From: Natronorubrum aibiense
GTDB lineage: Archaea > Halobacteriota > Halobacteria > Halobacteriales > Natrialbaceae
Reading direction: 5' to 3'
NCBI RefSeq assembly: GCF_009392895.1
Contig: NZ_CP045488.1
Location: 2,232,001-2,296,000 of the forward strand
DNA: 64,000 bases
Shown here: positions 52,300-56,902 of the stretch, one piece after another
Position numbering within the stretch: position 1 is the first letter of the stretch
Layout: each line of letters opens with the position of its first letter
Notes under the pieces: model-generated
Told to the model about the DNA's origin: nothing
Seen by the model: only the letters and a program-made list of their open reading frames with translations
Database searches by the model: none
Translations under genes and position numbers: made by a program

Positions 52300-53565
52300 A
52301 TGACGAGTCGAAACCGACGATCGTTCATGGCCACCGTTGGCGCAGCCGGAACGCTCGGCCTCGCCGGTTGTCTCTCGACGATCGAGGGGTGGCGTGGGGC
52401 CGACGATGAGCAGTCGGGCGGACAGTTGGACGGTGGGGCTGACGACGAATCCGAGGACCTCGACCTGCCCGGCGAATCGGTCGCGCGCTTCGAAGAGCTC
52501 GATCCGTGGGTGTCGATGATCGATGCCGGCAGCCTCGAGGCCGCGACGAACGACCCGTACGCGGGGGCACAGTCGGCCCGCCTCACCGCGGGCGAGGACA
52601 CCGAGTACGCGGGGATCTACACGACGGCGACCGACGGGCTGGATCTGCGTGAGCAGAACCTCTCGCTCGCCGTCAACTTCACTGGCCGCGAACAGATACT
52701 GCTGACCCTCGAGTTGTTCGCGCCGAACGCACAGCACGCCCACAGGATGCGGCGGACGCTCACCGGGCCGACGGATCGCTGGGTCCGCGTCGATTTCGGA
52801 ACGAATCAGATCGACGGCCAGCCCGACCTCGCGGACGTCCGTGAGATTCGAGTGTCGGTCCACCGACGTGGCGATCACTCCGGTCCCATCGATTGCCAGG
52901 TCGACGATCTGCGGGCCGTCGATCGACCCGATGGCGGGAAGGTTATGTTGCTGTTCGACGGCACGCTCGAGAGCCACTACACGAACGCACTCGAACACAT
53001 GCAGACGTACGGCTACGCGGGCGTCGAGGCGGTCATCCCCGAAGCCGTCGGCGAGACTCGAGACGGCCGACTCACGCTCAATATGCTCTCTGAACTCGAC
53101 GACGCCGGCTGGGATATGGCTGCGCGACCGCGCACGGGGGCGAATTTCATCCACGAGTACAGCCCCGATCAGCAGGCGGACCTGATCGAGCGGACGAACG
53201 TCTCACTCGAGCGCTGGGGATTCGAGGACGGCGCAAAACACTTCATTACGCCGCGAAACGTCCTCGGTCCGGAGACCATCGACCTCGTTAGAGAACACTA
53301 CGAGCAGGCGTTCCGGTACGGCGGCGGGCCGAACGGACTGGCGCTTACGGACCCGCATAACGTGGGTACGTTCTCCGGCACAGCTGGCTCGGAGACGAAA
53401 ACGTACGTCGATTACGCCGCCACGCACGGCCAACTCGCGGTCGTCCGCTTCGAGGAGATCGACGACGACGGCTTCGACGAGCGCGCGTTCGCGGACCTGC
53501 TCGCGTACATCGACGATCAGGACGTAGCCGTCGTCACCGCGACGGACCTGCTGGAGGGAGCCTGA
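52300..53565 (+). CDS. Deacetylase-like Tat lipoprotein with degraded metal site
   Basis: This 421-residue protein shares its layout with the protein at 48487: a Tat signal (SRNRRSFMATVG), lipobox GLAGC, beta-sandwich part, then a NodB-like domain. The metal motifs are changed: TWDDGD is replaced by LLFDGTLESH, and HGTHTPIH by ARPRTGANFIH, so catalysis is doubtful. It may bind glycan instead. A TTG at 52288 would add four residues; the ATG at 52300 fits the promoter motif spacing. Its stop overlaps the next start by one base (TGATG), so the two are coupled. Confidence 0.82.
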   Translation: MTSRNRRSFMATVGAAGTLGLAGCLSTIEGWRGADDEQSGGQLDGGADDESEDLDLPGESVARFEELDPWVSMIDAGSLEAATNDPYAGAQSARLTAGEDTEYAGIYTTATDGLDLREQNLSLAVNFTGREQILLTLELFAPNAQHAHRMRRTLTGPTDRWVRVDFGTNQIDGQPDLADVREIRVSVHRRGDHSGPIDCQVDDLRAVDRPDGGKVMLLFDGTLESHYTNALEHMQTYGYAGVEAVIPEAVGETRDGRLTLNMLSELDDAGWDMAARPRTGANFIHEYSPDQQADLIERTNVSLERWGFEDGAKHFITPRNVLGPETIDLVREHYEQAFRYGGGPNGLALTDPHNVGTFSGTAGSETKTYVDYAATHGQLAVVRFEEIDDDGFDERAFADLLAYIDDQDVAVVTATDLLEGA

Positions 53566-54614
53566 TGTACCGAGGTGCAACTATCGGCGTCGTGATCCCC
53601 GCCTACAACGAGGAGAGGTTCGTCGGCGACGTGATTCGCGAGATGCCGTCGGCCGTCGATCGGCTCTACGTGATCGACGACCAGTCAACCGACGACACGT
53701 GGAACGAGATCCACGAGGCAGCCCGGATGGACGCGAAGGCCCAGTCGGCCCCCGACACCGCAAGCGGGCCGCTCGTCGCGGACGGTGGCGCATCCGCACT
53801 CACGACTCGAGCGTCGGTTCACGATCCGATCGGTCGCGTCGTGCCGATCCAGCATCGGGAGAACCTCGGTGCCGGCGGGGCGATCAAAACCGGTTATCTC
53901 GCCGCCCTCGAGGACGGCGTGGACGCGACGGTCACCGTCGATGCCGACGGCCAGATGGACCTCTCCCAGCTGCCACGCTTACTCGATCCGATCGTCGAGG
54001 GGAAAGCCGACTACGCGAAAGGAAACCGACTGCTCTCCAAGGAGTACCGCGCGGCGATGCCGCGCTTTCGATTCGTCGGCAACGCGATCCTGACGTTCCT
54101 GACGAAGATCGCCTCGGGCTACTGGAAGACGATGGACCCCCAGAACGGCTACACGGCGATTTCCCACGACGCGCTGGCGGCGATCGACCTCGAGAATCTC
54201 TACGAGTACTACGGCTACTGCAACGACCTGCTCGTGAAGCTGAACGTCCACGGAATGCGCGTCGCCGACGTCGCGATGCCGGCCGTCTACGGCGACGAGG
54301 AGTCGAGTATCACCTACTCGAGTTACATCCCGAAGGTCTCCTCGATGTTGCTCCGGAACTTCCTGTGGCGACTCAAAACCAAGTACCTCGTGCTCGATTT
54401 CCACCCGCTCGCGCTGTTTTATTTCATCGGAGCCGGGACAGCTGTAGCCGGCGTCCTTGGTGCGGGGCTAACGCTCGTGACAATGCTCCTTGGCACCGGC
54501 GTCGCCATCGGGCAGACGAGCGTGCTTGTTGCCATCGCCGGAATCGTGCTGTTGCTGTTCGCGATGGTGTTCGACATGGCCGAGAGCGAACACCTCGAGT
54601 CCCAGATCCAGTAA
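53565..54614 (+). CDS. Family 2 glycosyltransferase, dolichyl-phosphate-sugar synthase type
   Basis: This 349-residue protein has a GT-A domain (IGVVIPAYNEERFVGDVI, VIDDQSTDDT, VTVDADGQM) with the DPM1-like stretch GAGGAIKTGYLAA, followed by two C-terminal membrane helices (about 275-300 and 315-340). It resembles enzymes that load a sugar onto dolichyl phosphate for use outside the cell. That fits the GT-C-like protein at 41067 as a user of the lipid-linked sugar (inference). It is translationally coupled to the preceding deacetylase-like gene. Confidence 0.9.
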   Translation: MYRGATIGVVIPAYNEERFVGDVIREMPSAVDRLYVIDDQSTDDTWNEIHEAARMDAKAQSAPDTASGPLVADGGASALTTRASVHDPIGRVVPIQHRENLGAGGAIKTGYLAALEDGVDATVTVDADGQMDLSQLPRLLDPIVEGKADYAKGNRLLSKEYRAAMPRFRFVGNAILTFLTKIASGYWKTMDPQNGYTAISHDALAAIDLENLYEYYGYCNDLLVKLNVHGMRVADVAMPAVYGDEESSITYSSYIPKVSSMLLRNFLWRLKTKYLVLDFHPLALFYFIGAGTAVAGVLGAGLTLVTMLLGTGVAIGQTSVLVAIAGIVLLLFAMVFDMAESEHLESQIQ

Positions 54615-54624
54615 TCCGCGTCCG

Positions 54625-54837
54625 TCAGTCGAAATACCCCAGTTGCCGAAGGTTCGCTACGGATTTCTGGTCGATGTCGACGTCTGCGAGTGCGTCCTGT
54701 CCTGCGATGTGTCGCTCGTGAAGCAGTACGATCAGTTGCCGTGCCGTTCGAAGTTTGAACGACTGCTCCGGATCATTCGTCTCGTTTTGTACGCTCTCGA
54801 GTAGCGTGTCAATCGTCTTGAAGACTGTCTCACCCAT
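54625..54837 (-). CDS. Small conserved-looking helical protein
   Basis: This 70-residue protein is acidic and helical (FKTIDTLLESVQNE, SFKLRTARQLIVLLHERH), with no cysteines or membrane segment. The ending LRQLGYFD recalls the C-terminal LADLGYLN of the phosphatase-family protein at 59875, a tail seen in sulfatase-like proteins, but this may be chance. No function is assigned. It converges on the family 2 transferase with 10 bases between. Confidence 0.65.
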   Translation of the reverse strand: MGETVFKTIDTLLESVQNETNDPEQSFKLRTARQLIVLLHERHIAGQDALADVDIDQKSVANLRQLGYFD

Positions 54838-54964
54838 ACGTCACAGTCGGGCACGGTCGAGATACCATCGGCTGTCATTCCAGCGGGTCGGGAACGATGC
54901 TCGAGTCAAAATCGAACTGATCAATGTCGCTGCACGATCCAGTGCCAGCGAAACCGCAGTAAAC

Positions 54965-54990
54965 AGCCTCGGGCACGGTGGCCCGAGGCT
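54965..54990. repeat. Perfect 10-bp hairpin, probable IS200/IS605 right end
   Basis: AGCCTCGGGC at 54965-54974 pairs with GCCCGAGGCT at 54981-54990 around the loop ACGGTG. It lies 12 bases downstream of the tnpB remnant's stop codon, where IS200/IS605 elements keep their right-end hairpin. Confidence 0.75.
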
Positions 54991-55002
54991 TTTGTAGTTC
55001 CT

Positions 55003-55290
55003 TCAGCCGTGCGCTAGCACTCCCTGCTCGGCAAGCGAGCGAGATGAGGGTGGGCGGCTTACGCGCCCCGACCCGGACAGACGCACTAACCGAACTTGCG
55101 GCTGGGTTTTGTGAGTCCGGTAATTCGTATCGTTACCGTCGAGTTTCGCCTTCTCACGCCACGCGATGTTCACCGATGCGTTCCAGTCGGCATGGTCTTG
55201 TGCCACGTCACACTTGTCGTTCGTACAGTGGAACCGCCGTCCCTGCCGATACCCGCGTTCACCACAGCACGAACACGTCTTAGACCCCAC
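55003..55290 (-). pseudogene. tnpB: 3' remnant of an IS200/IS605-family tnpB
   Basis: Only the C-terminal zinc-finger and last RuvC segment remain. The motifs are SKTCSCCGERG, then HCTNDKC, then DHADWNASVNIAW with the RuvC-III aspartate, followed by a typical basic tail. The reading frame enters the flippase gene's 3' end upstream and has no start of its own. A terminal hairpin follows at 54965-54990. The rest of the element, including tnpA, is gone. TnpB proteins are RNA-guided nucleases whose guide RNA overlaps this end; this remnant cannot be active. Confidence 0.88.
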
Positions 55291-56902
55291 CGTCGAGGAC
55301 CCCGAGTGCGAGTCCCGAGAGGAGCAACGAGAGCCCGGCGACGAACAGCAGGTGTTGGACCCAGTTTCGTGACGTCTCACCGCCCAACCGTGTTTCGAGG
55401 CGACTACGGATCGACTCCGCTCTCGAGCCGATCGGCTCGGGGAACACAGCGAGGATCTCGAACGGTTCCGCCGGGTCAAGCGCGCCGACGAGCAACGCGA
55501 AGATGAGGTAGATGAGGAACCCAATCGGCGGGACGACGGCGAGTGCCAGCCACGGACCCGAAAGCGCCGTCGAGAGGGCGACTATGGGAACGGCTGCGAG
55601 GGCAGTCGTCAAGATCACGCGTCCGAATCGGGCGTCGGCGAGCGGATCGAAGCCGACGAGTCGCGCGCTCCAGCAGTGGAAGGCGAACATCGTGCCGTAG
55701 CCGATGCTCGTCGCGACGGCGGCGCCGTGCATGCCGTAGCGCGGAATCAGGATGGCGTTGAGCACGACGTTGATCACGGCCGCAGTGCCGGTGGCCGCGA
55801 TCGGGTATCGGAGCGTTCCGTTCCCCTGCGAGACGGCGAGAATCGGTCGGGCGAGGGCAAAGCCCAGCGCGCCCGGAAGCAACAACAGCAGCGGTTCGAT
55901 CGCCGGCTCCGCCTCGGCTCCGAAATAAAGCGGGACGACGATGTCCGCAAGCGCCGCGAGCCCGACCGCCATAACGGCCGTCAGCAAAAACGTGTACCGC
56001 GTCGTCCGGGAGGCGAGGTCCGTGATCTTCCGGTGGCGGTTTTGCGACCACAGCTCCGACGTCGAGTGGACGTACACGGTCTGGAGTGCCAACGGGACGA
56101 ACCAGAGGAACTCCGCGAGCGTGAGCGCTGCCCGGTAGTTCCCGACCGCCGAACTCTCGGCGAATCGCTGGAGCATCACGATGTCGATGTGATAGAGCGA
56201 CATCAACAGGAACACGAGCACGATGCTCAGCGAATTGAACGTGAGCAGTTCCGTGCGCGGGAATCGCGCCGTCGGCCGACTGAACACGCACGACAGCGAG
56301 ACTCGTCGATGGACAATCACCAGCCCGACGGCGGCGACGAGCACGCTTGCAAAGAGGTGTCCCGCGAGCGCCCCCATCACGCCAGCTCCGGCGTAGACGA
56401 GCGGGATCGCCACGGCGACGAAGCCGACCTTATCGAGGACTTTCAGCGGCTCCGAGTAGCGCTCGAGGCCGAATCCCATGAGCGTCTTTCGAGCGTAGTC
56501 GCGAAACTGCGCCGTGACGACGAGTGCGGCCAGCACGTAGAAGTAAATGGTCAATCCCTCGCCGAACGCGAGGGCGACGAGCCCAAACTGGGCGGCGACG
56601 ACCAGCAACAACGCGCCGACGACGGCGAGGACGACTGCCAGTCGGAAGTAGAAGCCGACGACGTGTTCGCTCCAGTTCGCCGCGTTCCGGTCTTCGGCGA
56701 GGAACTTCCGGACGCCGTCGGTGATTCCGGAACTGACGAAGATCATGTAGATGGCAAACACTGACAGCAGGAAGGCGTACTCGCCGAACGCTGAGGCACC
56801 GAGAAACCGGTACAGGATCGGCGTCGAGAGGGTCGTGATCGCCAGCACGATGACTTTCGAACTGACGACCGAGAAGACGCCACTTGCGATGCTCCTGTTC
56901 AC
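55280..56902 (-). CDS. Wzx-like polysaccharide flippase
   Basis: This 540-residue protein has 12-14 membrane helices in the pattern of MATE/PST-family oligosaccharide flippases, including SIASGVFSVVSSKVIVLAIT at the start and LFASVLVAAVGLVIVHRR. It probably moves the lipid-linked glycan across the membrane. The start is GTG at 56902. Its final codons and TAA stop (55280-55282) lie in sequence shared with the tnpB remnant, so the original C-terminus may have been replaced. The promoter motif at 57088-57106 predicts a leader of about 160 bases. Confidence 0.88.
   Translation of the reverse strand: MNRSIASGVFSVVSSKVIVLAITTLSTPILYRFLGASAFGEYAFLLSVFAIYMIFVSSGITDGVRKFLAEDRNAANWSEHVVGFYFRLAVVLAVVGALLLVVAAQFGLVALAFGEGLTIYFYVLAALVVTAQFRDYARKTLMGFGLERYSEPLKVLDKVGFVAVAIPLVYAGAGVMGALAGHLFASVLVAAVGLVIVHRRVSLSCVFSRPTARFPRTELLTFNSLSIVLVFLLMSLYHIDIVMLQRFAESSAVGNYRAALTLAEFLWFVPLALQTVYVHSTSELWSQNRHRKITDLASRTTRYTFLLTAVMAVGLAALADIVVPLYFGAEAEPAIEPLLLLLPGALGFALARPILAVSQGNGTLRYPIAATGTAAVINVVLNAILIPRYGMHGAAVATSIGYGTMFAFHCWSARLVGFDPLADARFGRVILTTALAAVPIVALSTALSGPWLALAVVPPIGFLIYLIFALLVGALDPAEPFEILAVFPEPIGSRAESIRSRLETRLGGETSRNWVQHLLFVAGLSLLLSGLALGVLDGGV

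Follow-up and report, generated by a model that had tools for sequence, protein, structure and literature searches.

A flippase gene in Natronorubrum aibiense is followed, directly after its stop codon, by the terminal 321 bp of an IS200/IS605 element, comprising the tnpB 3' end and the right end (RE). We assign a probability of roughly 85% to the following history: an element of this family inserted 3' of a TCTAA pentamer at the flippase stop and was later deleted down to the 321-bp remnant, which still holds an intact omegaRNA scaffold. The incoming element, with divergent tnpA and tnpB, would have entered directly 3' of TCTAA, the target being the last two bases of the final flippase codon plus the TAA stop. 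Since the target comprises the end of the final codon and the stop, the flippase protein would have been left unchanged. The uninterrupted site would have read TCTAA joined to TGCGGTTTCGCTGGCA. A later deletion, probably between the target TCTAA and a similar TCGAA in tnpB, would have stripped away tnpA and the bulk of tnpB together with the left end. The remaining 321 bp would now form the downstream region of the flippase gene on the same strand, first the omegaRNA scaffold and then a host-derived guide. All positions refer to the window, that is, the whole stretch of 64,000 nucleotides that was analysed (Table 1).

Table 1. Features at the junction of flippase gene and element remnant, in window positions
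Feature	Positions	Strand	Basis
Flippase (polysaccharide biosynthesis/MurJ-like), evidently full length, ending GTC TAA	55280-56902	-	Pfam, orthologue alignment, C-terminus comparison
Probable TnpA insertion target TCTAA (host DNA), TAA being the flippase stop	55280-55284	-	left ends, empty site of sister copy, ends of L014 and L028
IS200/IS605 remnant	54959-55279	-	positions 1537-1857 of the 1857-bp reference stretch; blastn against intact copies, 89-90% identity
tnpB 3' fragment (zinc-finger and RuvC-III part)	55003-55279	-	in frame to TGA
Predicted omegaRNA (Rfam RF02657, sot2652), including first bases of the guide region	54935-55124	-	178.6 bits, cut-off 61
Right-end hairpin	54965-54990	-	perfect 10-bp stem (54965-54974 / 54981-54990), 6-base loop
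Right terminus of element, GTTTAC	54959-54964	-	all copies conserved to here, flanks diverging beyond; empty site
Host flank, would-be omegaRNA guide	54939-54958	-	first 20 bases behind right end; guide length assumed

Results

When positions 54900-55300 were searched against the genome, seven places were returned. Apart from the window itself, two of them matched strongly, at 90 and 89% identity and with E about 1e-120, which is far above chance, and four weakly. Both strong matches are complete elements of about 1.85 kb with divergent tnpA and tnpB, one of them lying at G000:C2:428156-430012. They are 99% identical to each other over the 1857 bp of the reference stretch, whose first five positions are the target, and the proteins of one copy matched PF01797 (Y1 transposase) and PF07282. 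In the window, homology to these elements ends at the flippase. The original prediction of a tnpB tail beside the flippase was confirmed: the fragment ends at TGA (55003-55005), matches PF07282 (E 6.8e-6) and shares 91% protein identity with the intact TnpB over 92 amino acids. The predicted hairpin of right-end type was likewise borne out by its perfect stem, as was the abutment, the remnant being in direct contact with the TAA (55280-55282). Fold energy was discarded as a sign of structure, being weak (z -1.71, with 8 of 200 shuffles equally or more stable).

With its tnpB and right-end hairpin homology and an insertion point 3' of a short, fixed target that was not duplicated, the locus classifies as a truncated IS200/IS605 copy. 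It is neither a complete mobile element, as the right end alone is present with no left palindromic end and no tnpA, nor a PATE (two-ended miniature element), as the near-terminal palindrome at the left end is missing. Set against the intact copies, the element has evidently lost 1.53 kb together with its left end. This genome also has a second, more distantly related type of IS200/IS605 element (L004 and L005), with TCTATAA in place of TCTAAA at its left ends.

TCTAA stands at the left end in 13 of 14 readable copies, the remaining one (L077) having TCGAA; L068, whose left end is unreadable, was dropped from this count. Relatives contain the left flank of the intact copy at G000:C1:1836241-1838097. 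The empty site reads TCCAACAGTGACTGCG in G008 and TCCAACAGCGACTGTG in G006, as opposed to TCTAA, the element and CCACGACTGCG in this genome, and the lengths are equal. Therefore, TCTAA is host DNA and GTTTAC is the right terminus. For haloarchaeal elements in general, PMC3119063 describes the conserved terminal oligonucleotide as a targeting sequence and not as part of the element.

Past the RE, the window continues with TGCG GTTTCGCTGGCA, and CCTC GTTTCGCTGGCA follows the flippase stop of G006 (N. bangense). The 12 identical bases (54943-54954) have the same spacing in both, and none of 2,000 shuffles did as well over 29 orthologues. Host sequence evidently restarts directly behind the RE. 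The flank clearly matches this one orthologue only, which counts against the proposed history; because the closer G007 and G008 lack the 12-base run, it is variable. In 24 of 29 orthologues, a convergent glycosyltransferase gene stands behind the flippase (tblastn, E 1e-3; L019 partial). A 70-aa ORF without Pfam match (54625-54837, - strand) lies between remnant and glycosyltransferase. Its relatives (34-58% identity) were seen in 6 of the 75 other genomes searched and as a second copy in this genome, and an approximate query sequence did not detect it in the flippase-glycosyltransferase gap of the 29 orthologues.

The omegaRNA scaffold of the remnant matched Rfam family RF02657 over the full model (1-187 of 187) and above the curated cut-off, as the covariance definition of sot2652 demands. 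The name sot stands for the sense overlapping transcripts of haloarchaea, which are now termed omegaRNAs. The match had E 2.4e-40, and no other Rfam match reached gathering score anywhere in the 64-kb window. When 14 loci were scanned together, 13 matched (none at L006), and the window copy scored highest, ahead of the genome's intact copies (169.5 and 155.0 bits). The original prediction regarded the guide-RNA region as a surviving relic. Its survival at full length was upheld; its decay was not, as it outscores both intact copies. According to PMC12558985, sotRNAs are omegaRNAs, are expressed in Halobacterium and are probably processed from the tnpB transcript.

Could this orphan scaffold still work? 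The flippase mRNA would then be the precursor, to be processed and used in trans by a sister TnpB. The complex would cut empty alleles, the chromosome copies in which TCTAA is joined to the guide sequence, and would favour the remnant in a polyploid cell. The intact scaffold at the top of the 13 matches and its sense orientation directly behind the flippase are consistent with such use. So are two published observations: TnpB is reported to process the mRNA that encodes it on the 5' side (PMC10278001), and in multicopy plasmids it behaves as a gene drive (PMC11870625).

The sister TnpB proteins are full length, and their RuvC motifs align with those of solved TnpB and Cas12f proteins, the aspartates and the glutamate being in register; we take these to be the catalytic residues. 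The first 16 bases of the guide matched the genome nowhere but at their own site with 0 or 1 mismatch. With up to three mismatches, 87 places were found, versus 133 for the reversed control. At two mismatches there were four places, one of which (L137, G000:C3:143527-143542, - strand) has TCGAA at the target position; we take this near-match as chance. Because the RuvC residues are in register and the guide has no other match in the genome at 0 or 1 mismatch, trans use against empty alleles is possible, and an active orphan guide RNA may exist.

We nevertheless consider it improbable that the scaffold is still in use. The scaffold is more similar to the nearest copies than the coding-only part is, but so it is when intact copies are compared with one another, and because of this the excess identity is no proof of selection on the remnant. 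Moreover, an intact copy of the subfamily is present in only 3 of the 16 other genomes with truncated copies (G051, G166 and G168, among the matches listed), as expected of debris. We grant just as small a chance to the further proposal that the remnant is a one-ended, protein-free omegaRNA locus which maintains itself without tnpA, tnpB and left end by cutting empty alleles in a polyploid archaeon. In a search of the open-licence literature, none of the titles listed described an orphan omegaRNA behind a host gene.

The age of the truncation was judged from codon positions. When set against a consensus built from 22 close copies, the window shows 3/2/10 differences at codon positions 1/2/3 in the tnpB-only part and 1/0/6 in the part shared with the scaffold. 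This pattern resembles that of intact copies, as the third-position bias is kept; among other truncated copies, changes at first and second positions are more numerous in L074, L116 and L076 but not in L066. Because the codon-position changes reveal no decay, the truncation is young, and the term fossil, which the original prediction had applied to the tnpB end, does not suit a coding part with the bias of intact copies.

The junction reads TCTAA|GACG in the window versus TCGAA|GAC in tnpB, which suggests a microhomology deletion. A junction placed exactly at target-like pentamers would also arise if the truncation were a product of TnpA, with TCGAA in tnpB serving as a false left cleavage site and the 3' part being inserted or rejoined behind TCTAA (one-ended transposition). 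L077 demonstrates that TCGAA is able to stand at a left end, and the junction of L079 is TCTAA as well. However, of the 17 copies that have a right end but no left end, only 2 show TCTAA there (L079 and the window case itself, which is included in the 17; L121 starts at a contig end and was left out). These are too few to warrant claiming a TnpA product, and TCTAA as a general rule for truncation junctions was dropped on the same count. An unsystematic look behind the internal TCGAA revealed no left-end-type hairpin either. One-ended transposition thus appears about as doubtful as a working scaffold.

A mobile family with a common breakpoint was also rejected, as no other truncated copy that was read begins at element position 1532-1537; L082, an internal fragment, starts at 1523 and spans these positions. 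Three miniature copies (L077, L113 and L126) have both ends and an interior that is short or partly missing; they retain the 3' end of tnpB along with the right end and are possibly mobile omegaRNA-only elements. L114 (G141:C85), which is in pieces joined by single Ns and has its right end repeated, looks like an assembly artefact.

It had been proposed that the insertion replaced the C-terminal codons of the flippase and that its TAA lies within tnpB-derived sequence, where TCGAAG would have mutated to TCTAAG. tnpB does share four of the five TCTAA bases, and a mechanical alignment continues through the stop to 55284. Because the T-C and A-A of the pentamer (55284 down to 55280) are shared by host and tnpB (TCGAA), the exact breakpoint within it is ambiguous. 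However, tnpB has TCG at the position of the stop's T in all 33 readable copies and the middle T in none (36 other copies were aligned, three of them gapped). At the target position, GTC TAA constitutes the final codon and stop of the flippase, and two uninterrupted orthologous flippases, L014 (AGTTTCTAA; from G007, 90% identity) and L028 (GAGATCTAA), terminate in TCTAA too, free of any IS. Orthologues of exactly this sort are what the original prediction had named as its refutation. The flippase stop codon is thus most likely not derived from tnpB, an origin that we rejected on these two observations. The best boundaries would assign target and stop (55280-55284) to the host and leave 54959-55279 to the element.

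The protein agrees with this assignment. The flippase matched PF01943 (E 1.7e-12), PF13440 and PF03023, and orthologues were aligned over residues 1-540. Among 28 scorable orthologues (29 were examined; L040 was unscorable), 22 are 4-9 residues longer, as a replaced C-terminus would have it. But five end at the same residue, one is a single residue longer and none is shorter, and the nearest ones, G007, G008 and G006 (90, 89 and 86% identity), end 0, 1 and 0 residues later. In addition, the host flank restarts at the spacing predicted for no loss. The C-terminus is evidently full length; its replacement is contradicted by the orthologue comparison, and we regard it as very improbable.

Least credible of all is that the right-end hairpin was kept as a + strand terminator of the convergent glycosyltransferase gene (53565-54614). 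In its favour, the stem is followed by TTTG on that strand. Against it, this is a single such site versus 0.6 expected in shuffles, and it lies about 350 bases past the glycosyltransferase stop, with a small ORF intervening.

Discussion

The sequence itself shows the homology to the element, the target and boundaries, the full length of the flippase, the RNA-family match and the lack of decay. We infer both the order of events, insertion followed by deletion, and microhomology as the cause of the latter. Going only by its position, the remnant would be transcribed as the 3' part of the flippase mRNA. Its present role is most likely none or nearly none, which would make it young, near-neutral transposon debris. 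As 5'-truncated copies of such elements are common, the remnant is an ordinary though unusually readable case. It illustrates how the target of an IS200/IS605 element can coincide with a stop codon and leave the host protein unaltered. The locus also offers a natural test of whether an omegaRNA scaffold without tnpB behind a host gene undergoes processing or use in trans; if it does not, the remnant is ordinary transposon debris.

Compared with the two intact elements of the same genome, the remnant is about 90% identical over the retained part and has the same right terminus and target, but lacks the left end, tnpA and most of tnpB. The likeness to sot2652 consists in the full sequence and structure match and, going by PMC12558985, in the same placement relative to the tnpB 3' end and the right end. 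In contrast to the known sot2652 RNAs, which sit in tnpB genes, only the last 92 tnpB codons are present here, with the flippase upstream. The kind of feature is already known, as deletion remnants have been published (PMC3119063). In Haloquadratum, PATEs and deletion remnants that derive from IS605-type elements are free of transposase and have a near-terminal palindrome; some carry C-terminal tnpB sequence, as the window remnant does, and deletions occurred between repeats (PMC3119063). A PATE, however, has both ends and may be mobile, whereas the remnant described here has one, and the repeats of 19-22 bp in Haloquadratum compare with a match of 4 of 5 bases at the flippase stop (PMC3119063).
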